This document shows, piece by piece, positions 4,684 to 55,174 of a stretch of DNA of 64,000 nt. The first letter of the stretch is position 1, and every line of letters begins with the position of its first letter. The stretch covers positions 4,092,001 through 4,156,000 of the forward strand of contig NC_088316.1 in assembly GCF_910592395.1 (NCBI RefSeq), read 5' to 3'. Under the pieces are notes generated by a model that made no database searches, was not told the DNA's origin, and saw only the letters and a list, made by a program, of their open reading frames with translations. The position numbers and the translations under genes are program-made. This DNA is from Lineus longissimus. Lineage: Eukaryota > Nemertea > Pilidiophora > Heteronemertea > Lineidae.

Positions 4684-4900
4684 CTGTTCTTTATAGAACA
4701 GAGGCTCGAAGTTGTCTAAAAACACTCTCTTCCAGTGGTTGAATAGCACCTCTTCAGCAGTGAGGCCGTGGCTTCATTTGGTTCTCAACTAATTTACTAG
4801 TTTATACTGCTTGACCCGGGAACCCCGACCAGAGTTTTCCTGCAATGTGCATTATGGCTCGGCATACACATACTACAGTACTGTCTGACCGGTTTATGCC

Positions 4901-5090
4901 TGTTTCGCCTATTCCTGTTTCGCCTATTCCTGTTTCGCCTACAAAATTCCTGTTTCGCCTATTCCTGATTCGCCTATTCCTGTTCCGCCTATTCCTGTTC
5001 CGCCTATTCCTTTTTCGCCTATTTCCTGTTTGGCCTATTTCCTGTTTGGCCTATTTCCTGTTTCGCCTATTCCTGTTTCGCCTACTTTCC
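4901..5090 (+). repeat. 15-bp tandem array, left terminus
   Basis: About 13 degenerate copies of a unit with core TGTTTCGCCTATTCC; variants include CGCC to GGCC and a few inserted bases. It forms the left terminal region of the 1-kb element. The unit length is a multiple of three, so it creates an artefactual open frame of repeated FRLFL residues, which I do not regard as protein. Confidence 0.85.
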
Positions 5091-5716
5091 AGTACCCCTA
5101 CAATAAATCGACTCTCCCACGGGGAACCTTAGGGATGCATGTCCATTTTATGGCGAAAATGTGAGGGGACAATTGGATGATGTTAACGATGTGATGACAA
5201 TTTGACTAATCAAATGCCATCAACTTTGTTAACAAACCATGCCATGACCTTTTGAAAGAGTCACCTTGAAAGCGGGGACAGTCGGGACTTATTTGACCAT
5301 AGGACCATAGGACCATACTGACACACAGTAAAAACTAATAGATTAAGTAGAGTAAAGCAGTCGTTTATTTTATGAAAACTGAATTCATGAGTTTTTGATA
5401 AAAATACATAATATTTGTACATTCTCATAGTTATTTGATCAAAATCAGCTGTAAAACCCATGTCATAATATACATGTAGGTACAGCACATATAAAGTCAA
5501 ACAAGGTGGAAAATACATATCATGATATTATGTCAGACAAGGTAACTGATGGCATCAATGTAACTCATTATGTCCCTCACTCCATTGACGTATTGTTCTT
5601 TGAGGCGTAACATGCGTTCGTCAATGCGTACATATGTGGCTCTCCTCGTGTTGGGTCGGTCAGTAAGGGACGGTTCATATTCCTACGTCTGTGGGGAGGT
5701 TAGCAATACATTTGAA

Positions 5717-5885
5717 TAGGCGAAACAGGAATAGGCTAAACAGGAATTAGGCGAAACAGGAATAGGCGAAACAGGAATTAGGCGAAACAGGAATAGGCGA
5801 AACAGGAATTAGGCGAAACAGGAATTAGGCGAAACAGGAATAGGCGAAACAGGAATAGGCGGAACAGGAATAGGCGAAACAGGAA
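5717..5885 (-). repeat. 15-bp tandem array, right terminus (inverted copy)
   Basis: About 11 copies of the same 15-bp unit in reverse complement (AGGCGAAACAGGAAT), forming the right terminal region of the element. Copy number and spacer variants differ from the left array, so the two arms have evolved independently since insertion or are homogenised only partly. Confidence 0.85.
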
Positions 5886-5899
5886 TACACCGTCTGACC

Positions 5900-26324: not shown

Positions 26325-29313
26325 CAGTGGATGTGACAAGCTGTCCTATTTGGTTGTTCCATCTCCAGGTGCTGCGTGAATGTGACTAGCTGTAGACTGT
26401 AAGACCGAGCCTGTCCTGATTGGTTGTACAATCTCAATGCTTTCTCTGTAGATGTGACAAGCTTAAGTTTCTGCCGTTAGACAAAGCCTGTCCTGGTTGG
26501 TTGGTTGTGCCATCTCCAGGCTTGCTCCATGGATGCAAAAAACTGTGGTTCCTGTAGGACAGAACCTGTCCTGGTTGGCTGTGCCATCTTCTGGCTTGCT
26601 CTGTAGATGTGACTAGCGCAGCTGTAGTTTCTGTGAGTCGGAGCCTGTCCTGCTGGTTGGTTGTGCCATCTCCAGATTTGCTCTGTAGATGTGACAAGCT
26701 GTGGTTCCTGTCAGATAGAGCCTGTCCTGGTTGGTTGTGCCATCTGCTGGCTTACTCTGCAAGTTTCTGTGAGACAGAGCCTGTCCTGCTGGTCGGTTGT
26801 GCCATCTCCAGGCTTTCTATGTAGACGTGTCTAGATGAAGTTTGTCAGACAGACTGTCCTGGTTAGTTGTGCCATCTCCAGACTTTCTCTGTAGATGTAA
26901 CCAGCTGAAGTTTGTTAAACAGAGCCTGTCCTGGTTGGTTGTGTCATCTCCAGACTTGCTCTGCAGATGTAACCAGCTGAAGTTTGTCAAACAGAGCCTG
27001 TCCTGGTTTGTTGTTTCATCTCCAGACTTGCTCTGTAGATGTAACCAGCTGAAGTTTGTTAAACAGAGCCTGTCCTGGTTTGTTGTGTCATCTCCGGACT
27101 TTCTCTGTAGATGTAACCAGCTGAAGTTTGTTAAACAGAGCCTGTCCTGGTTTGTTGTTTCATCTCCAGACTTGCTCTGTAGATGTAACCAGCTGAAGTT
27201 TGTCAAACAGAGCCTGTCCTGGTTTGTTGTTTCATCTCCAGACTTGCTCTGTAGATGTAACCAGCTGAAGTTTGTCAAACAGAGCCTGTCCTGGTTTGTT
27301 GTTTCATCTCCAGACTTGCTCTGTAGATGTAACCAGCTGAAGTTTGTCAAACAGAGCCTGTCCTGGTTTGTTGTGTCATCTCCAGACTTGCTCTGTAGAT
27401 GTAACCAGCTGAAGTTTGTCAAACAGAGCCTGTCCTGGTTGGTTGTGTAATCTCCAGGTCGTCTCTGTAGATATGTGTCTAGCTGTAGTTTGTCAGATAG
27501 AGCCTGTCCGGGTTGATTGTGCCGTCCCAAGGCTTGCTCTGTAGATGTGACTTGCTGTAGTTTCTGTGAGACAGAGCCTTTCCTGGTTGGTTGTGTCATC
27601 TCCAGACTTGCTCTGTAGATGTGACTAGCTGAAGTTTGTCAAACAGAGCCTGTCCTGGTTGGTTGTGTCATCTCTAGACTTGCTCTGTAGATGTAACCAG
27701 CTGAAGTTTGTCAAACTGAGCCTGTCCTGGTTGGTGGTGTCATCTCCAGGTCGTCTCTGTAGATATGTGTCTAGCTGTAGTTTGTCAGATAGTACCTGTC
27801 CTGGTTGGTTGTGTCATCTGCTGGCTTGCTCTGTAGATGTGACTTGCTGTAGTTTCTGTGAGACAGAGCCTGTCCTGGTTGGTTGTGTCATCTCCAGACT
27901 TTCTCTGTAGATGTGACTAGCTGAAGTTTGTCAAACAGAGCCTGTCCTGGTTGGTTGTGTCATCTCTAGACTTGCTCTGTAGATGTGACTTGCTGTAGTT
28001 TCTGTGAGACAGAGCCTGTCCTGGTTGGTTGTGTCATCTCCAGACTTTCTCTGTAGATGTAACCAGCTGAAGTTTGTCAAACAGAGCCTGTCCTGGTTGG
28101 TTGTGTCATCTCTAGACTTGCTCTGTAGATGTGACTAGCTGAAGTTTGTCAAACTGAGAATGTCCTGGTTGGTTGTGTCATCTCCGGACTTTCTCTGTAG
28201 ATGTAACCAGCTGAAGTTTGTCAAACAGAGCCTGTCCTGGTTGGTTGTGTCATCTCTAGACTTGCTCTGTAGATGTGACTAGCTGAAGTTTGTCAAACTG
28301 AGAATGTCCTTGTTGGTTGTGTCATCTCCGGACTTGCTCTGTAGATGTGACTTGCTGTAGTTTCTGTGAGACAGAGCCTGTCCTGCTGGTCGGTTGTGCC
28401 ATCTCCAGGCGGTCTCTGCAGACATGTCTAGATTTAGTTTGTCAGACAGAGACAGACCGGGTTGGTTGTCTCATTCCCAGTCATGCTGTGCGAATTAAAC
28501 TAGCCGTTTTTGTCAGATATAGCCTGTCCTGGTTGGTTGTGTCATCCTAAGGTTTGCTGTATAGATGTACCTCACTGTAGTTAGTCAGACAGGGCCTGTC
28601 CTGGTTGATTCTAGCCATCTTCAGTCTTCCTCTCTGTAGATGTGACTAGCAGCAGTTTCTGTCAGACAGAGCCTGTCTTTGGCATGGTGGATTGCGCCAT
28701 CTCCAGGCTTCCTCTGTAGATGCGCCTAGCTGTAATTTCTGTCAGACAGAGTCTGTCCGGGTTGGTTGTGCCATCTCCAGGTTTGCTCTGTAGATGTGAC
28801 AAGCTGTGGTTCCTGTCAGATAGAGCCTGTCCTGGTTGGTTGTGCCATCTCCAGGCTGTCTCTGTAGATGTGACTAGCTGTAGTTTCCATCAGACCAAGT
28901 CTGTCCTGATTGGTTCTGCCATCTCCAGGCCGTCTCTGTAGACATGTGTCCAGCTGTAGTTTGTCAGATAGTACCTGTCCTGGTTGGTTGTGCCGTCTCC
29001 AGGCTTGCTCTGTAGATGTGACTAGCCATAGTTTGTCAGAGAGAGCCCATTCTGGTTGGTTGTGCCATCTCCAGGTCGTCTCTGTAGACATGTATCTAGC
29101 TGTAGTTTGTCAGACAGAGCCTGTCCTGGTTGGTTGTGTCATCTCCAGGTCGTCTCTGTAGACATGTATCTAGCTGTAGTTTGTCAGACAGAGCCTGTCC
29201 TGGTTGGTTGTGTCATCTCCAGGTCGTCTCTGTAGACATGTATCTGGCATGGTTGATTGTGTCATCTCCAAGCTTGCTCTGTAGATGTGACTAGCTGTAG
29301 TACACATCTGCCT
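26325..29313 (+). repeat. 3-kb minisatellite, 72-bp unit (~40 copies)
   Basis: Head-to-tail units carry the landmarks CTTGCTCTGTAGATGT, AACCAGCTGAAGTTTGT, CAAACAGAGCCTGTCCTGGTT and TTGTGTCATCTCCAGA. The central part (about 26870-27450) is nearly uniform, with units differing at one or two positions; the edges are more diverged and include shorter variants (GACTAGCTGTAG, TCGTCTCTGTAGACATGT). Because 72 is a multiple of three, both strands stay open for hundreds of bases (26842-27450 on +, 26817-27599 on -), which I treat as an artefact of periodicity. Confidence 0.95.
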
Positions 29314-33452: not shown

Positions 33453-36400
33453 CTATCTCCGCCGTGCTTCTGGTTTCGTGGGCGAACTTGCTGGCACATC
33501 CACGTAGGCAGATTCAGGAAATAGTTCTGTGTTCTCAACCAAATACCTGGAATAATTAAGAATAGAATATATATCATGACATACTGCAAAGCCGGAAATA
33601 TTTGCGACCTTTTTATTTCACAGTTTTGTGAACTTTGCGTGTTTTGAGTGACTACTCTGTATTATATACTGTAACTGAACTGAGATTTTCCTTTTTAGCG
33701 ATATATTTTCGTGATTATCTTAGAACCCAAACAACGCCAAAATATAAGGCACGGGAATATACTGTCAGTCCTAGTTTGAGGCAACGTCAGTTAAAAAGTG
33801 TACAATAGGTCACAAGAATGGATGCTTTCTTACTGACATTTGCAGAAACCAGATTTTACTAGGTAAAGGTTTCGGTTATAGTCAGATCATCAAGGAGTTA
33901 ATCAAACACTTGATCCCTTCCAACCAGTACCCTGATAAGCTGGGTTGAGAAGGCAAATGCAGGGTTAAGTGTCTTACTCAAGACGCTGAATCAATTTGTA
34001 ATTCTAGCAGGAGTCGAACCTACTAACTTTGTAAGCCGTCTTCTTGTTTATACTTACTCCAATATCATATCTAAATGCTTTTGTAGGACAACGCGTTTGT
34101 GGTGAGGCATCGGCATACAATTGACAAACTCTGGTAATTTTACTGTAAACAAGAGGAAATACGCATGAGTAAAGATAATGTAAAAGTTTTGGGTTTATAG
34201 TCTGATATCAAGATATTATCATCCAACATCACACTTTTACTCTGGTCTATCATGAAATCTTTCAGTAGAGCTCCGTCTGCTCAACAAGCACTAGAACCTG
34301 AGCATTTTGACTGGTACACCCATTGATATACCTTGGTACCCTCTTCTTTTTCTTCTAAGTGAGTCTTAAGTTCTCTCCCTCAACATGTTAAAGATTATTA
34401 GTAATGGTTGTGTGTGGGTCGGGGGTATACTTCAGTTTTCCCACAATTGCACACTGGGCTTACAAACCAGGGACCTCTTGACCGCTAGCCAAGTGTCAGA
34501 GTCAATCGGCCACCGGGGCTCCTATGACAAATTTTTTTATACCTGCTTATATTACCCATCTTCTTTTGCATTTACTAATTCAATCACTATAAATGTTTCG
34601 CTACAAGCCTGTATTGCCTTTAGGGTTGGTGCTTCTTGGCCAGCACATGCCACAGATGTCTAAATTCTAAGGATAAGGCAATCAAACCTGAAAATTTAGT
34701 AGTCAAAGATACCATTAGCACGGTGATGTGCGGGTCTGTAGGTGACACCAACCCTAAAAGGAACACTGACCAGCACAGATTACTAAGGAGTACTCACCAA
34801 ATAATCTCAACAAATGATGAACACCATACATAACACTAGGGGGTGGTGGTGTCTCTGCATATACCTCCGGAGGGATCAACTTCCACGACAGAATTCCATT
34901 CAGCTGCGCGCCATTCTCAGGAGGCCCAAAATTGGACGTCGCACGACTCGCGGACGTTCCCGTATTGACCGATTTCAAAGTTGGCGTAACGTGTGCCGAC
35001 GACGTCTTACTCGACATGACGCTGGGTAATAACAATGGCGGTGGTGGTGTAATACGTTGAGACAGAGTCCGACCCTCCGACGAAGATTTAGAGGTCGACG
35101 CCTGGGACCCGGAGGAGTTCAATCTGGTGCTAGAGCGTCGTAATTCTCGTCCGGTCTTTTTCGACTCCGCCTTAGAACGCCTCCTCTCCCTCACGCTCAT
35201 TTCCTTCGACTCAAGCACCGGAGATTTTTCCATCACGGGTGGCTGATCAAGGGATCTTCCCGCACGTTCGGCCTCGGCTAAAGATTTGCGGGTTATTCGT
35301 CGAGTTGGAGCCTCATCTTCATCATCCAACGGTTCTTTTTTAATGTTTTTCGGCGACAGTCTCGGGATCTTTAGAGGGGGTTCCGCAGGGGGGCTGCTAA
35401 CACTCTGTCTGGTCGTTCGCCCCCTTGGTGACATTGGAACTGCTGGAGGGGGTTCATCAGTCTCTGAGCTATAAATAAGAGAGTCAAATGATTCGAAATT
35501 GAATGAGCCTGCAGTGCAGGACAGAAAGTGCTACAATATGTGACCCATCACATCAAATAGGGTACAAAGTCGCCAGGCCTAGTTTTGAACAATCACTGAG
35601 AGATTCCAGTTTCAGCCAAAGGTAGAGTCCATGAAAGCAACTCATGTTTCTTCTCACTTGGTGGAGTCTTTAACTTTCCCTGGCATAGACACAGGACACA
35701 AAGCACCTCTCAGTCTCGATCAAAGGACTGTGAAGAGCCAGGAACTTAAGTTCGTTGAAAGCCACACCAGTTTGTCTGCAACTACAAAATCCTAGGTTCT
35801 CCCAGGGATCAAACCTGGGTCCTATTGCATGGTAGCCTGCAGTGTCAACCACTAGGCTAAGTGTGAGGCTTCTCAAGATATCTGGGTTCAAGTTTAGGCC
35901 ACATCAGTCGAAATTTGCAAATGAATGGGCTAAACTGGACTAACCTATCACTTTTGGCACCAAAAGGTGGCTTGAATGTCGTCTGTAAATTCGCATGAGG
36001 CACTTCCTCAACATTGTAGAGCAGATGTGTGGGCAAGATGAAATCAAACATCAGCCTCAGACCATCCACAAGTTCCTTGCACAGCTCAATACTGAAAGGG
36101 AAGTCTTTATACATGAGAACCAAGGACATTCGGCTCAGTATCAATTTCTTAAACAGGGACTGAATCAATTCATCATTCAGTCCCTAAAAAAAACACATTT
36201 ATACCTGGACATTACATACATTCTAGTAATACATTGTCTATTGTATTGTAGGATATGTGTATCAATTGACTGGAAGCAGATTGATCAATGATCGTGGTAT
36301 CTTCACAGGACAGTTATCACAGTTATTGGTGGAAGAATTACATGCCGATCTAATGGTGTTATGCTATGGTAAAACTTCTCGAGACACCTTGTACACTTTT

Positions 36401-41791: not shown

Positions 41792-44700
41792 ATGGCGGAC
41801 GATCTACCCACGGACTATGATGTTATTGTGCTTGGAACAGGTTTGTAGCCGTTTAAAGTCCCGTAATTGATAAAACTTAGGCATCAGTAAATTCTGTAAT
41901 TTTCAGAGAACATTTCTGTGTATTTTTTATGATTTGTGCTGGCTTGTTTCAATAAGAAATTAAGTGTAAACATCGTACATGATGCGTCGTGCTCAAGCAC
42001 ATGGCCATGTTTTGACAAAAGATTTTATTCCAAAATGCCGCCATTATTTTTAGGCGCATTCCCTATATTTATTTCGAATGAAGCCCCAAAGTTATCATCT
42101 TCGGGTTCCCAACGATCTTGGGAATCATTATTTGCCTTTGTTTTAGTGCTAGAAATTGTATTTGTGCAGAATTTTGAAATTTTCCACACGAAGTCAACAC
42201 TGACTCACGGGTAGTTTTCGCCACTCGTTTCAAAATGGCGGCAAAGTTGATCATAACAATGACATCAGCCTAACTGTGGATAGTTTGGATGAGTCACTCG
42301 CCTGATTTCTTGTTATGGCCTAACGTGCAGTTGCATTCGAAAGATTATAATCTGTGGTTTTCAGTAAGTTCGTGGCAGTTCTTTTGCTGATTTTCTCTAC
42401 TTCTGAAATAAAAATGTAATGGTCTTTGGGCAATCCGACCCGGCCCATCCCCACGCCAGTGTTTGTAAATGTAACAAAGTTTCTTCAGCGATTCATTTTG
42501 TTTCAACTTGGCAGCATTTTTGATTCTGACCCTGTTCCTGGCTTAATGCCAAAAGAGAAAATCTTGCTGGTCAAATGCTCTTCTTGCAAGTTCGTTACCT
42601 GCCTTTGAAAAGTATATTTGGAAAAAAGAAGCATTTATTAATCCACCAGTTTATGCCATACCCTTGTTTCTAACAATTGTTTTTGCAATTAAGTAGACTG
42701 AGTAATGAATTAAGGGAGTCGCCCGGCCGAGCCATGTTGGCAGTGATCTGGATCATCGACGCGGTTGAGTCCATATATCAGGGGTATGGCCTAAATAAAT
42801 TGGTTCATTAAATTTGTTGCAAGGCCTGAAGTTGGCTGGTCATGCTGTAGTTGATTGTTATGTTGTGTTGCAGAATACTTTTAAATAGATAATGAGTAGT
42901 GCTAGTACAGTGTTCTTATTTGTAAGAATAAAGATCGTCCAATATGATATGATGTAAAGACCATTCATTAACAAATGTGTTTGTCGTATGCTGTTTAAAA
43001 TGCAATACTTTGTTTAATTTTTGTGCCAGCATAGTCTGCCGGTGAGACTGGGAGGGGTCTGATTTCAATCAATGTGACTTAGTGGAAAGCTTATTTGACC
43101 CACCCAGTTTTAAGGGTGGACCACCATTTTGGCTAGAACTTGAAATCCTAAAATTAAAACTCTTTCACAACAAGGTGAAGGCCAATTTCAAAGGTGGGAC
43201 TGGGAGTAAGTTCTTTGTTTACCAGGGAATAGACTCCCGCCATTGAAATTGGCATTCACTTCATTTTAGGGGACGTTCTAATTGCTTGTAACCAAAATTG
43301 TTTCAAAACTTACAACTTCATTCCTTGACAGCTGGTGTTGCTTCAAAATGTTATCTTGCAATCCTGTCTTATTTTATAACACTACAGAGCCTATTGTATG
43401 TGTCATCTGTCCTTCCTTCTTCTTTTGCCAAGCAGCATTCAAGAAAAAGGGAGTTTGAAAAAAAATTCTCTCCGTTTTGCTAATTTGCAGGGTTAAGTGA
43501 AAGTATCTTGGCTGCTGCTTTTGCCAGGATTGGCTTGAAAGTTCTTCATTTAGATAGGTAGGAATATATTAGTCTTTACTAATTAAAATTTATGTAAAAC
43601 AGTTCATGGATTGGTCCCCTCAAGTATTCTGAACTGCATTCTCTTTTCATCAACCAAATTGGTGGTTTTGTTGCTCAATGAATATATGGAGTTGCTCAAA
43701 AATAGCTGGTGCTGTTATAGTCCGTTTGTGTTACTGTTATAGTCTTACAAATGTGTGGTAGCAGTCTCAGTTACTCTTATTCTAAAAAAACCCTTGATTT
43801 AAACTGAACAGCTGAATTATAGTGGCTGATTTCGGGATCAATTCAGAACTTTTTATGACAGCAAAACTTTCTGAGACTGAAGTACCAGCTGCACTGCTTG
43901 TATTGTCCTCTGATAATCTCACGGTCCATATGCGACATCCATTCATTGTGAAAAAATTCATATTGTCAATTGTGCACTTGTTGTTTCAGATATGAATACT
44001 ACAGTGGCGATTGGGCTTCATTCACTTTTGATTGCCTCCAGAAGTGGATAGAAAATGTCCACAGTACTCATGAGTCAGCAGTCAGGGATGACTCGGACCT
44101 GCTGAAAGATGGTGAATCGTTTATTGGACTTGAGCCATATTCCAATACAATCACTAATGTGGAACAGTCATGGTTTATCAGGTAAATCATACATAGTTCG
44201 AGGTGAAAATGAACATTGTCCCTGAGAAGTCCTCATAAATATTTCAGCTCTCTTTACATAATGATTAAAGGCCCAAGAAACACATTTCTTGTGAATGGGA
44301 GGCATCAAGTGTGATTGTACCCTTGGGAAGCCATGAAGTGCTACTGATAATGACTGCTCATGTTCAGTTTTGTTGTGGCTTCTTCCTAGAAAATTATCCC
44401 TGGCTGGAAAATTCTGTTTGTTCTTGGAGATTCATTCAGTGTCTCTTGGATGCTCAGCTTGTTGGTAGGTTCTTTCTTTGTCATGTGTCAACTTTGAACA
44501 AAACTTTCTTATGTTTGCCTGTAAACTGCCAAATTTTTGTAGACACTTTTATGATCTATCCTTAGTTCAAATCTTATATTCTCCCTTCAGAGAGAGCTTG
44601 CCTGTTGAACTGGACACCGAAGCCCCTGGCTCTGTCCAAGATGATGGAACTACTGACAGTGGATCTGGCGTTGGTACAGAGGGCAGTCCTGAGGAGAAGC

Positions 44701-47700
44701 CCGCTGATAAAGAAAAAGGTGTTGCAGTGGGTGATGTCTCCCCTCTGCCTGCTCCAGAGGCAAAGGATGTCATCAGTGAAGTTGTGTCCAAAGAATGGAC
44801 AGCAGAGAAGATCAGAGGTTCCTCGAGAAAGTTCAATATTGACTTGTCTCCAAAGGTAAGCACTTAAAAAAATCTACATGAAGAGTTGTACAAAAATTGT
44901 TATGTTGGTCCTTGCAGTTTCATCTTCAGCCTTGTCAGTTGAAGTCTTTATTTTTCAAACCCAATGGTAATGTTTTATCATCTTCTGTCTCCCCCTCTAA
45001 ATGATTGACATGTATTAGCTGACCCCCTCCCCCAGATGAAAAAAATCGTATCATTGCAACTGATGCCAGCAATTTTGAGATAGTTCCTTAGTGACACTGA
45101 GAAGTGCCACATTTTGGTGATGTACTATCTATACTTGACTTTGCTAATTCCTTGCACTTGCATTTCAGCTACTCTATTGCCGGGGCTCGCTTGTGGAGTT
45201 GTTAATTTCTTCCGACATTGCCAAATATTGTGAATTCAAAGTGATATCGAGGGTGCTAACGTGGATGAACGAGAAACTTGAACCGGTTCCCTGTTCAAGA
45301 GCGGATGTGTTTGCAACGAAGGCTGTCTCCATGATTGAAAAAAGGGTGCTGATGAAATATCTTCAGTTCAGTTTGGACTATGAAAGCCACCCAGGAGAGT
45401 ACCAGGGTAGGTGTGGTTTGATGGAAATGTCAATCGGGGCTACCCCAGGAAAAGACCACAGTCCAGACAAACTAACAGTTACAAACCAGAAGTTAAGACT
45501 TCATTTGATTAATTTTCATGGAGAGCTCCAAAGGGCTGATAGTACCGTACACAAATACTGTTTGAAAAATTCGATAAGCAGCTGCATAAATGTTGTTCAA
45601 TGCCAAAATAAGCAACTGTGTAAATGTAGTGCGATGCTTCAGCATGCCAACTAAATCTGTTTCAAATTAAACTTTACAGGTTTTGAAGATCGGCCATTTA
45701 GTGAGTTCCTTAAGTCGAGGAAGATGTCTGCTAACGTTCAACATTATGTTATACATGCCATTGCCATGGTTTCAGAAGACACACCCACTTTGGAGGTAAG
45801 TTTTAAGACTTGAAGATGTCATCTATCTTGGTCAAGAGAGCTAGCACTAAAGAAAGACAAAACGTTGTATTCATTTGGCAGAGTAAACAAAAGCAAATCG
45901 ACAAATAATGTCATTTACACTTTTTTAAAGAGCTCTCTGGTAAAAGTGAGAATAGGGTTGTCGATGTTTTTTCACGGCATGGCAATTGGGCCATGTTGAG
46001 GAGGCAGAATGCGTCGCTCTTAGTACCCTTGTTAAACAGTTTTATTTATATTACTTTTTTTTCTAGGCCCTAAAAGCGACGCACAAATTCCTGATGTCTC
46101 TCGGGCGCTATGGTAACACTGCATTCCTTTGGCCAATGTATGGTAGCGGTGAGCTACCCCAGAGTTTTTGCCGAATGTGCGCTGTGTTTGGCGGCGTGTA
46201 TTACTTGAGGAGACCAATAGAACAACTCGTCATCAATGAGGACAAGAAGTAGGTTTTTTTAGAAAAACATTAAAAAAAATGGAACTGAGGTGGACAATTA
46301 ATTCACCCGTACTTCAAATTTATATTTGCTTTTAAGTTAATCGTGTGATCGATTGACAAAAATGAGATTCATCACCAATTAACTGATATCTGACCTACTG
46401 ACCCCACACAAACCAAAGACCCATGTCTTCAGTTGACTGGATAAATACAGGCTGTCTGTGTTGTGCACCATATCTCAGATAAGGTCTTTAGATAAAGGGT
46501 AGCCATGGGGAATTTGGGGAAATGCAATATATCTCATATCTTTGTACGATGTATATTTTCTCTGCAGGATTAATAATACATTTTTCAGTTAGTATATATG
46601 TACAGGTGAAGTTAGGTCCGGACATGTTGTCTGAAACGCAAATGGGGACTGAGCTTTCTTGCAATCCGCAAATCAATTTTCTCCACACGTAGTTGTGTCA
46701 TATTCCACAAAGTGGCTGTGATGTGTTCTGACATATTCATATCACAGCCTGCTTTGATGGGCTATGCCGCAATAACTCTCATCAGTGAAATGTGGACAAG
46801 TTAGATCATCCTCTATCATCATACAAGTGAGGACTAGCTTGTAGTTTTGACAGGAGGCTTAAAGTTGGTGTAAGAAGTCTTCAGACTGAAATGTTTGGTG
46901 TGGAGATTTCGGATGAAAGCTATGACAGAAGGAGTAAGAAGAAAGGTGTATTGCATCTTTAAGCTGTTTTAAACACATTGGCAAAACTCTCAGGGAGTGG
47001 CCTGGGCATCAACAAAAGACAGGGTATGTCATAAATTTGGTGTGTTCGTGTTGGTCTGGGTGAAAAAACCTCCAGATTTTAAGGACGATCTTGTAGTTCT
47101 TTGTAAAACAAGTTCTTTTTTGTTGCAGGGCTGTTGGCGTTGTTTCGGCTGGCCGGCGATTGAATGCCAACTACGTGGTGATGGATGCAAGCTTTGCCAG
47201 TAGTCAGTTGGCGCCTGGTATTACGTCAAGCAGGTAAGATTGTCTGATGGGACTCTGAGCTTGTCTTATGGGACTCTGAGCTTGTCTTATGGGAGAATAT
47301 CGGTGAGGGTGTCTTAAAGGAGAGAATGAATGAATGAATTGATCAGGAGGGACTCCGTGGGTGTGGCGAGGGCATTCTCTATGCAGGCTGTAGGGGGAAA
47401 TGGTTTGGTCAAGAATTTTAATTTTGCGAGTAGACAACTCGCAGCCAAGTAGGGAAAGTATTGTAGCGTAGTGTAGCCCAAAAGCAGAACTGCAAATGCA
47501 GGCGTTGTAGTGTCATGTTAGGAGAAGTCGTTGTATTGTGTTCTCTTCTACATGTATTTCTCTGCTGCTTTGGGGGGCCAATGTACCTGGTTTGGCCGAA
47601 GACATGGAATCTTCGCCAGTGAAAGTAAAAGCTGGGAGTGTAATGGGGAATAATCAGATGGCTTGGAAAGGTTTGACGGAAGCATGAAAACTTTTCCTTT

Positions 47701-50700
47701 GAAAGTTAAAGGTGGTGTAACTAGGAATCAATCAGATGGCTTGAAACTAGGTGCAAAAGCTAGATGGGTTGAAACTAGGTCCGTTCTTTCTTTCAGTGTC
47801 CTAAATGTTTTGAAGAAATATGTCTCTTGTCTAGACCACAGGGTGCCTGTGATATGCTCTAAAAATGACATATCACAGCCTGCTTTGATGGGCTAGACTT
47901 GGGTCCCTGCCGTTCACCTATTGTCTATTGGATAAGCAAAGGAAATATGGAAGTTATTCACTCAGACTTGCGTTGATCTTGTATTCCACAGAGTGGCTGC
48001 GGTGTGCTAAATTGTTGTCCATATCACAGCCTGCTTTGATGGGCTACAGGATTTGACATTTGCTTTGGACAGTTGACCTGATAAATGCGAATTTACAGAC
48101 AAATCTGTTGTCCAAAAGAAACTTGCTTTGTGAAGCTGCCAGACTGGGTCCGTCTCGTCGTGCAAAGCCCTAGCAGTTGTTGCCTAGATCTCCTCGACAA
48201 TTTGTTTTTACTTGCCTGGATCGTGCATTGTTTGTACTTTCCACCCTTCAATCTTTCTGTTACATGACTGCTATGAGTACGAGAGATGACTTCAAGACAA
48301 ATTTTGGTTCCCAAAGGAGTGCACCCAGTGCTGCATCTCTGTCCAGAGTTGGCATGTCTTGTTCCTAAATAGTGTTTTCCAAATCCACTGAGTGGTGGTG
48401 ATGTGTTGACAATCATATCACAGCCTGCTTTGATGGGCTTGGAGCCACTGATATTCCATAGTAGTAAAATACCGATAAAACAGTTTTGTATACAGTAACA
48501 TTTTCAAAGTAAATGATATCTGGAGGACTTTGAATCTGTTTCGTGAACACATCCTATGCTTGTCCCTTCTTCCACAAAGTGGTTGTGATTTGCTTCATGT
48601 AATCATATCACAGCCTGCTTTGATGGGCTAAGTGACCGGTGAATAACTTCTTTAGACTGGTCCCTTCGCACATGTAGCTTCACTTTTGGGATTTCAGTAA
48701 AGCGTTGTTTAATGATGCAGCGGCCCGAAATACTAGTCTATCGTAGTTCTTGGTAGATAACGTGAAGTTGTACTAGTTCGGAAGTAATCAGTTTGATTCT
48801 GTGTGTTCTTTAAGAATACTTTTCGGTGTAGGTTTTTAGGCGATCTCGGTGTTCTTGCCAATTTTACGCTCCACAAAGTGGCTTTGAAATGCTGACATCA
48901 ATGGTTTATCACAGCCTGCTTTGATGGGCTGCAAAATTGGCCGGTCGATTAACCCCTTCCCCAGCTCGTTTGGTGTGCTGTAACAAGGTTTGTGTGAACC
49001 CTAGGCCTAGATTCCAACCTATCTGAGGCTGCCTGTGTTGGGCTCAAACAATTTAGGACAGGCTGCATGACTTGATCTGTATTGCAGATGTGGGATTATG
49101 TATCGGGTCTTGCTAAAATTACTAGAGTAGAGCGTTTCGTCACTGACTGGTGGGTCCCTGTAGATTTGGTTCATGAAGGATTCGGGATCTGTGTGACCAC
49201 TTCATCCCACTTTCCCAGTACCAGCAGCTGAGTTCCAGGTATGACTAGCGTAGGTTAGACAATCTAACAAAGAGACTTAAATAAAGGAACAAATTCAAGG
49301 AGGAGCTTGTTCTTGGAAACCAATCTTTCTCTCTGATCTGGTCCACTAAGTGGCTGTGATGTGTCATGAATAAAAATCATATCACAGCCTGCTTTGATGG
49401 GCTTGATTTGATGTGAGTTCTTCTGACTTTGATATCTAATGGAGAGTCGTATGGACTGACCACTGCTTTGAATAATGTGCAATTTTGCGATTGTTCAGTA
49501 AGCAAATCAGAAGGCTACCAATCTGTGCTTGCAACGGAGCAGTTTGAATAGAAATTTTGATGAAGAAAAAGCCATGCAGAATCCAATTCAGTGAGCGATT
49601 CGGTAGTAAGGCCCATTGAAGTGGCTGTGATGTGTTCCAGAATATTTCATATCACAGCCTGCTTTGATGGGCCAAGCTGCTGTCCAACGTTGACAAGACT
49701 CTAGCCAACCCATGACAAACATGTACATGTAGTTCGAAGTTCTTCGTCGTCTGTACCTTGGATTGTCCACTGCATGAGGAATTTTTGAGATGCACGCTAG
49801 TCAGTCGGATGGATTGGAGTACACAGTTATTTGGAAAGCAGATTGTTGAGGAAAACATCTTTGATGGAATAATTCAAGTCTGCCCTCCTCTTCCGCAAAG
49901 TGGCTGTGATGTGTTGATTACAATTCGTATCACAGCCTGCTTTGATGGGCTAGGAGGTGGACCTGCTCTGGGCAGTCTGGAATCAACAGGAGAAAAGTAT
50001 TGCAACGACTTGAAAGCTATCTGTCTGTTTTCTTGAAAGTTGTATGCCTGGTATGGTAGAGGTAGATTTGGTCACTTGAAAATGCAAAAGGTAGCGAAGA
50101 CCACCAGGTATGATTCCACTGGATCATTGATTATTTTTTGGCCCCTCGTTCCACAAAGTGGTTATGATGTGCTGTCAGTTGTGACATATCACAGCCTGCT
50201 TTGATGGGCTGAGTGGCTTTGACAAGAAGAAGACACGGATCTTACATGTAGTTCCTCTAACATTTATATGAGGTATTGTAGGCAATTGACAAGACCATAC
50301 TGTTTCTTATCTGCAGTCTTCTTGATACCTGAATTCCCTCTGTGGTGAATAGGCTAAGAAAGGCGGTGACTGGAAGAAAAGCGCATTGAGTCGGGTCGAG
50401 CGTGGGAGGAGGAAACCCGCATTTTGGTAGAATCCCTGTCAAGTCCATCACAGCGGTTGTGATGTGCTATATGAAGACATATCACAGCCTGCTTTGATGA
50501 GCTGGATGGTTGGGTAAAACGTCAATGGCAAGGTTCTTGATCGAGATGAGGTACTACTAGGCCGAAACACAAGGTAGACTGTAGTTTGTTGTGAAAGGGG
50601 AGTCCTTGGTCATAATTGGCCTCTGTCGGTGGTAGGATTGTACCTGTAGGTGTGTGTGCGTGTCGGGAGTTGGTGGTGGTGACATGTCACTTATCAGTCA

Positions 50701-52930
50701 TGAAAGTCGCAAAGTGAGTGATGTGGACCTGGGAGGAATTGGCCTCGAACAATTATTTACTTATAGGACCGTCCATGAATTTTCCCTGAGGATAATTTTA
50801 GTGACAAGGCCAACATAATAATGCTGTAACCAGGCAATTTTAATATGACTTTGATTGGAGGCTTAAGTTCCCAATTGAGCAGAACTACCCGATGGGAATT
50901 CTTGAACATTCTGAGTGTTGGGTGTTGAGAGTTTATTATGGTGTGCTTTCTTTCAGGTGTGTGTCAAGGGCCATATACCTCACCAACAAGAGTATTCTAG
51001 ATTGTGGTAAAGATGAGGTAGGTTCACTCTCTTACTACATGTGAACTGTACTTCACTGAGATAAGTATCCCTTGGCCTTGTGCGAGGCGAGAAAGTGCTT
51101 TGGTACCATTTGTACCATATCAGTTGATTTTGTTATCGATTACCAAAGGATTATCATTGCTGCATTGAAAATATATATATCAGCACACAACTTCCGTGAT
51201 CAATCAACAATAGAGCTCAAGTAGACAGTGCTGTACTTAAGAAAAAAGGTTAGATTGTATGCTCTGTTAGAGTTGACATGAACCAGAAATTGTTCTGAAA
51301 AAATAATTTGTCCCCTTTTCAGCTGACCCTTCTTCGACTTCCATCGACCCCTGATAGTCCAGAGCCCATCACTGTGATAGAACTCACTCAGTCTGCCTGT
51401 GCTTGCCCTGATAACATGCGTAAGTTGAATCGTACACCTCCAGGGTTCTCCTCTAACTTCTAACCAGGTGCTGCACCAAGACGAATTCAGTTTTCGACTT
51501 AAGCACCTAGACAGATTCATGAGCTGGTAATGGTTTCACTCCTAGAGCAACCAGACAGGTTTTGCTGCCACCCTACACAAAATGAAAATGGAAGTCAAAA
51601 TTTTGTCAAAATATGATTACATCACCCGGCAAAAGAAATTTGGAGTACAGAACACTGCACTTCCAGGCTGGAGTATACAGCAAAGCAGTTGTATGCCCTG
51701 ATGATGAATCGATTGGCCTAGGCAGTGCCAACTGACATAAGTATCCACCACATCTTGTGTTGTGGCAGGATTCCCATTTGTCTTTGTATGCTAAGTCGGG
51801 AAGGGCAAATCTCAGCTCAGTTACTGAGATTAAAGTTTTTTCCAATAGTGTGTATATGTATCAGTTAACTTGGGGGATCAATCGTTATGATTCTGGTATT
51901 TTCATGCGCCTATGATCTACTCCATGGAGTAGTGGATCCAAAATGATGTCCTCTGTTGGCAGGCGGGTAAGAACGTAGTTACGTAGTTACACCTCACAGG
52001 AGTCCACGTTATCGACTTTCTATTTTAGTACTGGTACACATGACATGCATCGGCAGTGGGGACCCCAAGAAAGATTTCAAACGGGCAGAAGACAAGCTGT
52101 TCAAGCCAACTGACTCCAGCGACGAGGATGACGAGAGGCCAAAAGTCCTGTGGTCGTTGTACTTCAGTCGACAAGATTCCACCCACTGTGACTTGAGCAC
52201 GGGCGATGTCAGTAATGTGTTTATCACGACCAGTCCTGATGAGACTCTGCATTTTGAAAAGGCAGTAACACAGGTGCGTGTAAATTTCTTTTAAACAACC
52301 AGTTGAGTTTTTATACTGGAAAAGGTGAATTATTTGCGAGTATTTATGCAGATGCACTGTCAAACGCAAACTAAAAAAATGAGCAGAATTTGTCAACTTT
52401 AAGCGTTGCGAAAAATTTCATTTTATATCTTTCAAGACTACTCATATTGATCAGGAGGGGAGGAAACCCCCGACTTCAGTGGGTGTATGATTAATTGCGA
52501 TTAACTACACTAGTTATCTTAGAAGTGAAGCAGGCAATCAAAGCAGCTTGTTGCGTATTCTATTAAAGTCTTCTGCATTTGCATTGCTCTTCAGACCAAG
52601 CCAATCTTTGACAAGATATGCCCAGATGAGGAGTTCCTGCCAAAAGCCCCAAACCCGGAAGACATCATATTCGAGGGAGGCGAAGGGCAGGCGCAAGATG
52701 CTGGGTTTGGTGCCCAGGGAGATGCAGCTGTTGATGACAAGAAAGAGGGAGGGGCTCCTGAAGGGGTAACAAAGGATGCGGTTGTTGATGGTGAGACGGA
52801 ACTTGATGATAGTCAACCAGTAGACTCCGTGGCTGATACAGCAGTTGCTGAAGCTGAGTCGGGCATTCTCGTGGAAAGTAATACTGAAATCGATGATTCA
52901 GTTACTGTGGAGACTGATGAACTGAAATAG
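41792..52930 (+). CDS. CHM: Rab escort protein (REP / choroideremia homologue), complete
   Basis: Twelve exons, 650 aa (human REP-1 is about the same length): 41792-41840, 43491-43557, 43990-44181, 44591-44855, 45169-45406, 45680-45795, 46067-46248, 47129-47233, 50957-51017, 51323-51419, 52029-52273, 52595-52930; all junctions are GT/AG with matching phase. The N-terminus has the GDI/REP dinucleotide-fold motif ([20 protein letters not shown]) and YYSGDWASF. An acidic, variable segment (~105-180) precedes [23 protein letters not shown], typical of the family; [11 protein letters not shown] and [20 protein letters not shown] are further REP/GDI signatures. Exon 12 has the conserved [23 protein letters not shown]-like segment, then an acidic tail. 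Family role: presents newly made Rab GTPases to geranylgeranyl transferase II and delivers them to membranes. Introns 7 and 8 carry eleven miR-2 family hairpins. AATAAA hexamers at about 53523 and 53894 are candidate poly(A) signals. Confidence 0.96.
43180..43264. repeat. Fold-back repeat in CHM intron 1
   Basis: GGCCAATTTCAAAGGTGGGA and, inverted, TCCCGCCATTGAAATTGGC form arms of ~20 bp around a ~45-bp loop, with a second inner pairing of GACTGGGA-like sequence. Confidence 0.55.
46700..46766 (+). ncRNA. mir-2: miR-2 family precursor 1 (CHM intron 7)
   Basis: Hairpin with 5' arm CACAAAGTGGCTGTGATGTG and 3' arm TATCACAGCCTGCTTTGATG, predicted 3p mature 46740-46762. GGCTGTGATGTG pairs fully with CATATCACAGCC (one G-U), and CAAAG pairs with CTTTG. 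Seed ATCACAG defines the miR-2/miR-13 family. This is the only copy upstream of CHM exon 8. Confidence 0.9.
47252..47295 (+). repeat. Short tandem repeat near the start of CHM intron 8
   Basis: Two copies and a partial copy of a ~22-bp unit, TTATGGGACTCTGAGCTTGTC. It is unrelated to the miR-2 hairpins. Confidence 0.7.
47829..47899 (+). ncRNA. mir-2: miR-2 family precursor 2 (CHM intron 8)
   Basis: Predicted 3p mature 47871-47893. The 5' arm is GGTGCCTGTGATATGC, diverged outside the seed-pairing core, and the outer stem is closed by GTCTAG/CTAGAC. 151 nt separate its mature start from that of copy 3, the tightest spacing in the cluster. Confidence 0.9.
47981..48050 (+). ncRNA. mir-2: miR-2 family precursor 3 (CHM intron 8)
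   Basis: Predicted 3p mature 48022-48044. The 5' arm is CACAGAGTGGCTGCGGTGTG, where C-G and G-U changes keep part of the stem; the 3p sequence equals that of copy 1. Confidence 0.88.
48376..48446 (+). ncRNA. mir-2: miR-2 family precursor 4 (CHM intron 8)
   Basis: Predicted 3p mature 48416-48438. The 5' arm is CACTGAGTGGTGGTGATGTG, with a mismatch against the middle of the invariant 3p arm. Confidence 0.88.
48565..48635 (+). ncRNA. mir-2: miR-2 family precursor 5 (CHM intron 8)
   Basis: Predicted 3p mature 48606-48628. The 5' arm is CACAAAGTGGTTGTGATTTG; the G-U pair replacing C-G opposite CACAGCC preserves pairing. Confidence 0.9.
48857..48941 (+). ncRNA. mir-2: miR-2 family precursor 6 (CHM intron 8)
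   Basis: Predicted 3p mature 48907-48929. The 5' arm GTGGCTTTGAAATGC has more mismatches than the others, but the basal stem is long: GCCAATTTT pairs with AAAATTGG outside the usual hairpin. The base before the mature start is T rather than A. Confidence 0.85.
49340..49406 (+). ncRNA. mir-2: miR-2 family precursor 7 (CHM intron 8)
   Basis: Predicted 3p mature 49380-49402. The 5' arm is CACTAAGTGGCTGTGATGTG with a fully paired GGCTGTGATGTG core. Confidence 0.9.
49609..49675 (+). ncRNA. mir-2: miR-2 family precursor 8 (CHM intron 8)
   Basis: Predicted 3p mature 49650-49672. The stem is closed by GGCCCATTGAAGTGGCTG against the 3' arm ending GATGGGCC, giving the longest near-perfect stem of the set. 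Confidence 0.92.
49884..49958 (+). ncRNA. mir-2: miR-2 family precursor 9 (CHM intron 8)
   Basis: Predicted 3p mature 49928-49950. The 5' arm is CGCAAAGTGGCTGTGATGTG, and CCTCCT/AGGAGG extends the basal stem. The base before the mature start is G, not A. Confidence 0.9.
50146..50216 (+). ncRNA. mir-2: miR-2 family precursor 10 (CHM intron 8)
   Basis: Predicted 3p mature 50187-50209. The 5' arm is CACAAAGTGGTTATGATGTG; the core has one A-C mismatch and a G-U pair. The 3p sequence equals that of copy 1. Confidence 0.88.
50443..50511 (+). ncRNA. mir-2: miR-2 family precursor 11 (CHM intron 8)
   Basis: Predicted 3p mature 50480-50502. This is the only copy whose mature 3' part reads GATGAGC, the form I recall for insect miR-2, instead of GATGGGC. 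The 5' arm is CACAGCGGTTGTGATGTG and CCATC/GATGG closes the stem. Confidence 0.9.
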
Positions 52931-55174
52931 ATACTAGAAATAACTCTCCTCTGTGTTTCCGCTTTGTTGGTCAGTGATACTTTTCTTCATCAATAATAGT
53001 AATTATGAGACTTAGAAAGCGCTGAATCCCACTGGTTTCAGTTGCTCAAAGCACTTCACATTATTTACTGACATTTGGAACATTACTAGCCGGCTCCTTA
53101 TAAAAACTTTTGACCCTACATGTACGGTCCCTCTGCTGTGTGCTATTACTAATGTGTTTCACTGCAGTTCCTAACTTGTGCCATGTTGGCCCAAGTGTCT
53201 CTGCTATAGGAGAAATAACCTTCACAAAAAATACTTATTCTGCGTCTTTAGAGACAGGAACAATATTGTAGTGGTCTCCGATCGAAAGCTTTTGACTTCA
53301 TGTTCCCTTATAAGGGTGTCATTACCAATGTGTAATACTGCAGTGTATGACATAGTGCCCTGTTGGTCAAGAGTCACTGCTACAGGAGAAATAACCTTAG
53401 CAAAATCTTGTTATTCTTTATAGCTTGTGGTGTATCTTCTGTTGGTTTTAAAGCTTGGTAGTAGCGACCATCACTAGGTAGCCATGTGGTGATTCATAAT
53501 CTTCCGTGGACGCCTTGCTAGAAATAAAAAATTGTTTTGCTGGAATCCTTGGTCGAACGGATTCTGGAGGGTCAAAAGGCACTGGTTTCAATGTCTTTTT
53601 GTCTCAATAATGCCGGCCACAAAGGATTTTGGTTAGCCTACTTCAGCCCTAAAACAAGAATACTACAGTATATGAATCACCACACTGGGTGAACTGATAG
53701 GCTTTTCTTGCTGTTCATGTAAATCATATGTGGAAAATGTAATTATTGCAGATGTTGTTAATTGCCATAGGCTTAGAGCCTACCCAAGTCTTTCATTTGA
53801 TGCTAATCTGTCTGTATTAGAAATGGTATGTGCTACTGTGATTATTAAAGATATGTGTATTTATTCAAGAGTAATTATTTTGTTGGGAATTATGCAATAA
53901 ATAACCAATAATGATATATCTTTCTTGTGTTTCTTTCTGGTGGACATCACATAAAAATCTGTTTCCATGAAAGGAATGACTGGAAAATCCAGTTACCTCG
54001 GCCCAAGTACCAAGTAGCCAGGCATTGTAGCAGTTCATGCTGTGCCATGTCCATCTCCATCGAATCGTTTCTAAGACAGTCGATACGCCTTCAGGATATT
54101 GAAGACTGTCCGGATATCTCTGCTCTTTTCCCATCTTCACATGACATCATTGTTCCCATGCCAGTGAGGACGAAAAGATCTTCATTTGTATTTGGCCGAG
54201 GACGGTGTCTCAATCTGATTTTCATAAAGTGAGTGATTGCTGTGCAGTGGTGTCTTCAGTAGGACAGCGTTTTAATTCAGTGTAAGCTCGGCTGCAGACA
54301 AAAGTCTCAATCAAAAGTGACAATATTGTGTTCCAAATTTGGAAATGATGTTGCCGGCAGTGCCTCAAACCATCCTAGAATGTGAATTTAATTGTCACGT
54401 CATCATAGGCCCACTCCTCCAAAAAACATATGAACGATTTTTTTGTGACACCCTGCATTGATTGGTTAGTATAGCTGACACAAGGTGGCGCCAACTATTT
54501 CCGGGTAAACATTCTTGCAAATTTGTTATTTTACACATCCAATAAATGCCGATTTTTACCTAAATACTGAAGATAAAGTTAAATTTCTTGTCCAACTGAT
54601 GAAAACTGTTATAAGATATCGTCGACAACAAGGTAGTTATCAACAAAGCTGAACAATACAGGTTTAGAAGACAAATTGTTAGACTTTTGGACAAGATTGA
54701 AAAACTCAAACTGCTACTTTTGACAAGATTGAAAAGCTGCTACTTTTCAAGTCTTTCTTCTTTCTATTAATTTTTCTCTCAGACCCTCAACTTAAATCTT
54801 TTGAGGGTGCATTTAGCTGTCATATACCTCCAACAGGATGGATAGGGCACAAGTCAAAAAGGTCCAGAACAGAGTCAGAACAGAACGTTAACATGATGTA
54901 GATGAGATGGGAAACCCAAGGGCAAGGCCTATTTATGCTATACTAACACAGTCCAATGTTTTGTTGCGGTCACAGGTGTACTTGGAGTGCCGGTACAGAA
55001 AAAAATACAGTAAAATTGCTTTATAGAATACCGTTTGCATTTTATGTTCTTACCCCAAGGTAGACGGAGCTGACCAACTGACAAGTGACCGATACCTCTC
55101 CCCTTGTTGGATGGGACTTTTTGCTTGAAGACCCAGACTCCACCCTTTGACCGTTGACTGATAAAACTTTCAAG
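52931..55174. other. CHM 3' UTR and CHM-BBS7 intergenic region
   Basis: AATAAA occurs at about 53523 and again at about 53894. The interval 53100-53420 contains an imperfect tandem duplication (about 53105-53245 and 53286-53420; landmarks AATGTGT, TACTGCAGT, CAGGAGAAATAACCTT, ATTCT). The sequence near 53008-53055 (AAAGCGCTGAATCC) resembles a generic dispersed-repeat end. No additional exon was recognised. Confidence 0.5.
53105..53420 (+). repeat. Imperfect tandem duplication in the CHM 3' region
   Basis: Two units of ~135-180 bp share AGCTTTTGAC or AACTTTTGACC, ATTAC(T/C)AATGTGT, CACTGCAGT or TACTGCAGT, and GGAGAAATAACCTT followed by (C)ACAAAA and TTATTCT. It falls within the likely CHM 3' UTR if the distal poly(A) signal is used. 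Confidence 0.7.

Follow-up and report, generated by a model that had tools for sequence, protein, structure and literature searches.

The window analysed here, 64,000 nucleotides of the ribbon worm Lineus longissimus (contig NC_088316.1, positions 4,092,001 to 4,156,000), holds a gene for a Rab escort protein (REP/CHM, RabGGTase component A) and, within two of its introns, an array of eleven microRNA (miRNA) hairpins of the miR-2 family. The coding span of REP runs from 41792 to 52930 on the plus strand in a splice model of 12 exons with GT-AG borders, the joined open frame of which encodes 650 aa. The predicted protein carries the GDI domain (PF00996, 1.3e-62) and the RAE1/2 domain (PF22603, 3.5e-32) of Pfam, and among solved structures it matched REP-1 (1ltx_R, 1.2e-134) ahead of RabGDI (1.9e-48); by domain content and splice model, the host is a complete Rab escort protein gene. 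Introns are numbered by coding exons, with possible 5' non-coding exons lying outside the model. Intron 7 (46249..47128, 880 bp) contains the first hairpin, m1, and intron 8 (47234..50956, 3723 bp, the longest of the 11) contains m2 to m11, with all eleven hairpins on the strand of the host gene.

An earlier sequence-only reading of this DNA had placed eleven hairpins with a near-invariant 3p arm in introns 7 and 8 of a REP gene, and had taken them for miR-2 in a lophotrochozoan. Each of these points was borne out. The 20-mer TATCACAGCCTGCTTTGATG is present without mismatch on the plus strand at all eleven proposed mature starts, and over nt 1-23 of the 3p arm the copies show a single difference in 253 bases, at nt 21, where m11, the last of them, has A instead of G. 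Thus nt 21-23 read GGC in ten copies and AGC in m11, while the seed AUCACAG occupies nt 2-8 in every copy. No further match within 3 mismatches of the searched pattern was found in the window, where shuffling gave an expectation of 0.04 matches on average at that tolerance. Whole-genome searches covered 391,118,348 bases in 30 contigs (the contig of the array is referred to below as C9); the exact 20-mer was matched at least 11 times, every listed match lay in the REP array, and the backward control gave none. The predicted mature 3p product is UAUCACAGCCUGCUUUGAUGGGC, with the ending GAGC in m11, and the mature small RNA is predicted to be 22-23 nt long, of the form CCUGCUUUGAUGGG.

All eleven copies matched the Rfam mir-2 model (RF00047) at E<=5e-5 in a 13-kb search, and seven exceeded its gathering score of 45.5 bits; weaker matches on the opposite strand arise because the hairpins are near-palindromic. 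Each fold energy was also compared with those of 300 dinucleotide shuffles, giving the z values below. The 5p starts of the hairpins are approximate in all copies. Those above the gathering score are m1 (46705..46762, predicted mature 3p strand from 46740, 61.5 bits, z -7.4), m5 (48572..48628, from 48606, 57.9 bits, z -4.7), m7 (49343..49402, from 49380, 55.7 bits, z -6.4), m8 (49613..49672, from 49650, 57.4 bits, z -9.4, the strongest fold), m9 (49893..49950, from 49928, 60.3 bits, z -5.3), m10 (50151..50209, from 50187, 46.4 bits, z -3.5) and m11 (50445..50502, from 50480, 50.8 bits, z -5.0), the sole copy with A at nt 21. Those under it are m2 (47836..47893, from 47871, 40.5 bits, z -4.9), m3 (47986..48044, from 48022, 40.4 bits, z -4.8), m6 (48871..48929, from 48907, 40.5 bits, z -2.4, the weakest fold) and, by a slight shortfall, m4 (48385..48438, from 48416, 44.9 bits, z -3.7).

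Animal miRNAs are expected to derive from a single hairpin in which at least 16 mature bases are paired. Folding of each precursor, which the sequence-only reading had proposed as a check, predicted a single stem in 11/11 copies, and pairing of the mature strand ranges from 17 to 21 of its 22 bases, so that all eleven exceed the threshold of 16. None of the shuffles folded as well as the real sequence in eight copies, and one did for m5, one for m10 and four for m6. No common pattern of Drosha motifs (basal UG, downstream CNNC) was clear among the copies by eye.

Constraint on the mature strand and the stem

Conservation among the copies is concentrated in the 3p arm, where mean identity between copies is 0.992 compared with 0.317 and 0.329 in the two 20-nt flanks. 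When spacers were compared with one another by blastn, only matches of 12-18 bp were obtained, at E values (0.03-0.1) expected by chance. These figures uphold the earlier suggestion that selection acts on the 3p product. The accompanying claim that loops, 5p arms and spacers have all diverged stands for loops and spacers; divergence of the 5p arm is moderate, with 49 differences in 220 bases, a count that a shifted register of m8 and m11 makes too high.

Within the upper stem (nt 1-22, omitting the bulged nt 11 and 18), a changed 5p base with the pair kept was counted in 16 cells, and 13 cells were unpaired, one of which reflects the single 3p change. In the lower stem, below the mature duplex, 96 of the 121 cells at nt 24-34 are paired with letters that differ among copies, and each position from nt 24 to 33 shows 3 to 6 pair types. 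Because these pairs were taken from each copy's own fold, pairing of the lower stem was tested by exchanging 3' flanks between copies. A copy's own flank gave a mean of -10.0 kcal/mol vs -4.0 for the flank of another copy, the own partner was better than all 10 swaps in 8/11 copies, and none of 100,000 permuted assignments was as good as the true set. The upper-stem tally and the flank exchange together indicate that the 3p strand is conserved in its bases, and much of the remaining hairpin in its pairing. The comparison among copies thus supports selection that preserves the stem and the 3p bases and lets loops, spacers and the letters of the lower stem drift.

A miR-71/miR-2 cluster in PPP4R1

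Linkage to miR-71 is usual for protostome miR-2, without being a defining property of the family. No miR-71 was found in the window or in the 100 kb on either side of it, searched in 10-kb pieces, and the REP array therefore has no such linkage. Across the genome, one exact miR-71 21-mer was found, on the minus strand of a second contig, C11, with an Rfam mir-71 score of 64.2 bits. The other 21 places returned by this search each carry 3 mismatches, 14 of them being one repeated word, and the backward control returned 4. When 5 of the 8 excised candidate miR-71 loci were submitted to Rfam, mir-71 was reported at one only (L035).

At C11:11593209-11598911, on the minus strand, miR-71 is followed downstream by seven miR-2-like copies on the same strand, and the linkage absent from the REP array is therefore present here. 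All eight elements lie in one intron (C11:11599275-11592978) of PPP4R1. The seven copies have five forms over nt 1-22, TATCACAGCCAGCTTTGATGAG occurring three times along with four others, and the copy at 11594613 has kept its seed in a hairpin that has decayed (-17.9 kcal/mol). The sequence-only reading was thus correct about an eleven-copy array in REP but incomplete, as the genome has this miR-71/miR-2 cluster in addition.

Genome-wide, the Rfam mir-2 model gave 18 rows at E<=1e-3, comprising the 11 REP copies, five of the seven C11 copies (those at 11598669 and 11594613 being absent) and 2 opposite-strand echoes, all on C9 or C11; seven of the C9 rows and four of the C11 rows exceed the cut-off, 11 in total. 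One of 14 control genomes gave a mir-2 match, and none gave a match over the cut-off. A search with the 23-mer listed 34 places (backward control 2), of which 11 on C9 and 4 on C11 have no more than 1 mismatch. Because the Rfam scan scored the best 60 of 103,049 candidates, and the 23-mer search likewise scored its best candidates only, further diverged miR-2 copies may exist.

The two loci differ in how uniform their products are. Mean pairwise differences over nt 1-22 of the mature strand amount to 0.18 in the REP array vs 3.52 for the copies in PPP4R1, or 2.53 if the decayed copy is omitted, which argues that the REP array serves one product. The REP array is therefore a second miR-2 locus, on another chromosome, without miR-71 and with a nearly uniform product.

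Origin and function of the REP array

The REP array is probably a derived locus, produced when miR-2 moved to REP and was multiplied in tandem, with selection on the 3p strand and the stem and with a gain in dose. In this scheme the PPP4R1 cluster would be the inherited, older locus, from which one miR-2 copy would have been carried into a REP/CHM intron without miR-71, and tandem duplication within REP would then have given rise to the eleven precursors. Drosha and Dicer would cut each precursor to yield the 3p strand, such that eleven hairpins would amount to approximately one miRNA, and the likely gain would be one of dose, with many precursors carried by each transcript of a broadly used gene. 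Transfer from PPP4R1 to REP would be the simplest account of direction; the ending GAGC of m11 matches four of the C11 copies, a shared feature that fits this direction. Furthermore, the host of the miR-71/miR-2 cluster on C11 is the host known from oyster and Caenorhabditis elegans, which supports the reading of the REP array as the second locus. Expression of the array, its co-transcription with REP and its role in dose may be expected under this account; the proposal of the sequence-only reading that hosting couples miRNA supply to REP is uncertain.

Several observations weigh against a derived, dose-selected array. In a tree of the hairpins, which are too short to reveal source or order, the REP array does not form one clade and the C9 and C11 copies are mixed. 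Four of the eleven copies fall under the Rfam gathering score (40.4-44.9 bits), and the fold of m6 is only modest (z -2.4). In the flank exchange, swaps equal to or better than the own flank occurred for m5 (1/10), m7 (3/10) and m11 (3/10). The identity of the mature strands could stem in part from gene conversion. Finally, co-transcription with the host often fails for intronic miRNAs (PMC2835999, PMC4138081).

The last of these points underlies the strongest alternative, namely that the hairpins are real miR-2 genes with a promoter of their own in or near intron 7, for which REP is a mere address without coupling. This is a serious possibility, rated somewhat below even. The mir-71 and mir-2 genes of C. 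elegans lie in ppfr-1 introns, yet their expression differs, and at least one third of the same-strand intronic miRNAs of that species have their own promoters (PMC2835999), while in oyster only 21 of 76 host-miRNA pairs showed strong co-expression (PMC4138081). However, all eleven hairpins lie on the REP strand, and the expression of the oyster mir-2 genes in PPP4R1 resembles that of their host (PMC4138081).

Tandem arrays are prone to gene conversion, and the extreme identity of the mature strands in the array would be accounted for if recent duplication or conversion had made them uniform without selection for one product. That explanation is unlikely, as spacer matches do not exceed 12-18 bp, and loops and lower stems differ among copies though the stems are paired. 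The divergence of spacers, loops and lower stems indicates old duplicates, in every one of which a conversion tract would have had to stop at the mature strand.

A mobile-element or inverted-repeat family that merely resembles miR-2 is a very improbable source of the hairpins and was rejected: a repeat that contains a miR-2-like 23-mer and is dispersed in this genome does account for 14 of the 34 listed places, at 3 mismatches from the pattern, but the three of these 14 copies that were folded gave no hairpin (z 0.85, -0.11 and -0.11), whereas the REP 20-mer is confined to the array among listed matches and the array copies score as Rfam mir-2. No whole hairpin of the REP type with shared flanks was found elsewhere among the listed genome-wide Rfam and 23-mer matches.

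The dispersed repeat is near-identical from place to place, its 23-mer TATCACAGTCAGGTTTGATGAGA being the same at 13 of the 14 listed places and carrying 1 substitution at the other; the copies folded were those at C9:6611607, C12:9329910 and C19:3020739. It looks like a recent mobile element.

Fly miR-2 is known as a regulator that acts through K-box sites. Within REP itself, a putative miR-2 8mer target, CTGTGATA, lies in exon 10 (51372..51379, plus strand) and a putative 7mer-m8 target in the presumed 3' untranslated region (UTR; 53836..53842, plus strand), both speculative. The REP mRNA (coding sequence and presumed 3' UTR, 2948 nt) thus has 2 miR-2 7mer-m8 sites vs 0.49 expected from its dinucleotides, for a Poisson probability of approximately 0.09, and autoregulation of the host through these sites is too weak to claim. 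It is unlikely that the array, as an eleven-precursor dose amplifier maintained by selection and split from the miR-71 cluster into a ubiquitous membrane-traffic gene, dampens REP through the exon 10 8mer and the 3' UTR 7mer-m8 in a self-limiting loop, the strength of which would be set by copy number.

This one genome offers two miR-2 loci of opposite habit, mixed and accompanied by miR-71 in PPP4R1 and uniform in REP. They provide an internal comparison for asking whether selection for dose acts on miRNA copy number and how a new host gene affects a conserved miRNA. The shared sequence is also an annotation trap, because ten of the eleven loci have the same 23-mer and a short read does not reveal which of them it came from.

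Other elements of the window lie outside the array. A tandem array with a period of 72 and approximately 39 copies occupies 26341-29222. On the minus strand, the reading frame at 35857-36180 contains an MRG domain (PF05712, 3.9e-6), the sole Pfam match among 10 window frames, and probably belongs, as an exon, to an MRG-family gene nearby. Tandem repeats of 15 bp are found at 4895-5084 and 5714-5887, some 0.6 kb apart, based on TATTCCTGTTTCGCC and its reverse complement in rotated form.

Comparison with known miR-2 systems

The REP array is real and falls within a known type, the tandem intronic miR-2 cluster. A literature search in a library without most subscription papers revealed no miR-2 array hosted by REP, and no single miR-2 cluster of eleven was found in the available portions of the literature compared, miRNA databases excluded. 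The terms nemert-, lineus, lophotrochoz- and brachiopod each occur 0 times in the main text of MirGeneDB 2.1. For Capitella, embryo miRNAs in a large tandem cluster have been described, with the family unnamed in the text available, and a miR-2 gene is numbered o36 (PMC8915122), from which it appears that larger miR-2 sets may exist.

The closest known relatives of the loci described here are those in PPP4R1. Of the oyster mir-2 genes, six lie in an intron of PPP4R1 and another in SMC4. The six were compared with the host in expression, the largest r being 0.93, and the authors suggest that PPP4R1, together with C. elegans ppfr-1, is the ancestral site (PMC4138081). The term mir-71 has 0 occurrences in the available text of that paper. 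In C. elegans, mir-71 and mir-2 occupy different introns of ppfr-1 (PMC2835999). The PPP4R1 loci of oyster, C. elegans and C11 resemble the REP array in family, seed and intronic location, and those of oyster and C11 also in having tandem copies. They differ from it in the presence of miR-71 (C. elegans and C11) and in varied mature forms (C11), whereas the REP array lies on another chromosome, lacks miR-71 and has 11 copies with one dominant mature form.

Other protostomes show individual features of this arrangement. The centipede has mir-71 followed downstream by five mir-2 genes (PMC4244043). The miR-2 family of Brugia malayi equals the REP array in size, its 11 members being 9 individual sequences and 2 duplicates, but about half of them are clustered, mostly with miR-36 (PMC4019659). 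The spider Parasteatoda, like L. longissimus, has its miR-2 clusters at two distinct places of the genome, with 3 and 6 mir-2 genes; it differs in that each cluster has kept one miR-71 and in that the larger has only 6 mir-2 (PMC4987109). In Drosophila, miR-2 clusters arose by duplication and miR-71 was lost from the genus (PMC3763532), and the miR-2/13 hosts include a spitz intron and, for mir-13, CG7033 (PMC3763532, PMC4138081). The miR-2/13 clusters of Drosophila thus resemble the REP array in occupying other host genes without miR-71 (PMC3763532), whereas in L. longissimus the host is REP and miR-71 has been retained at another locus.

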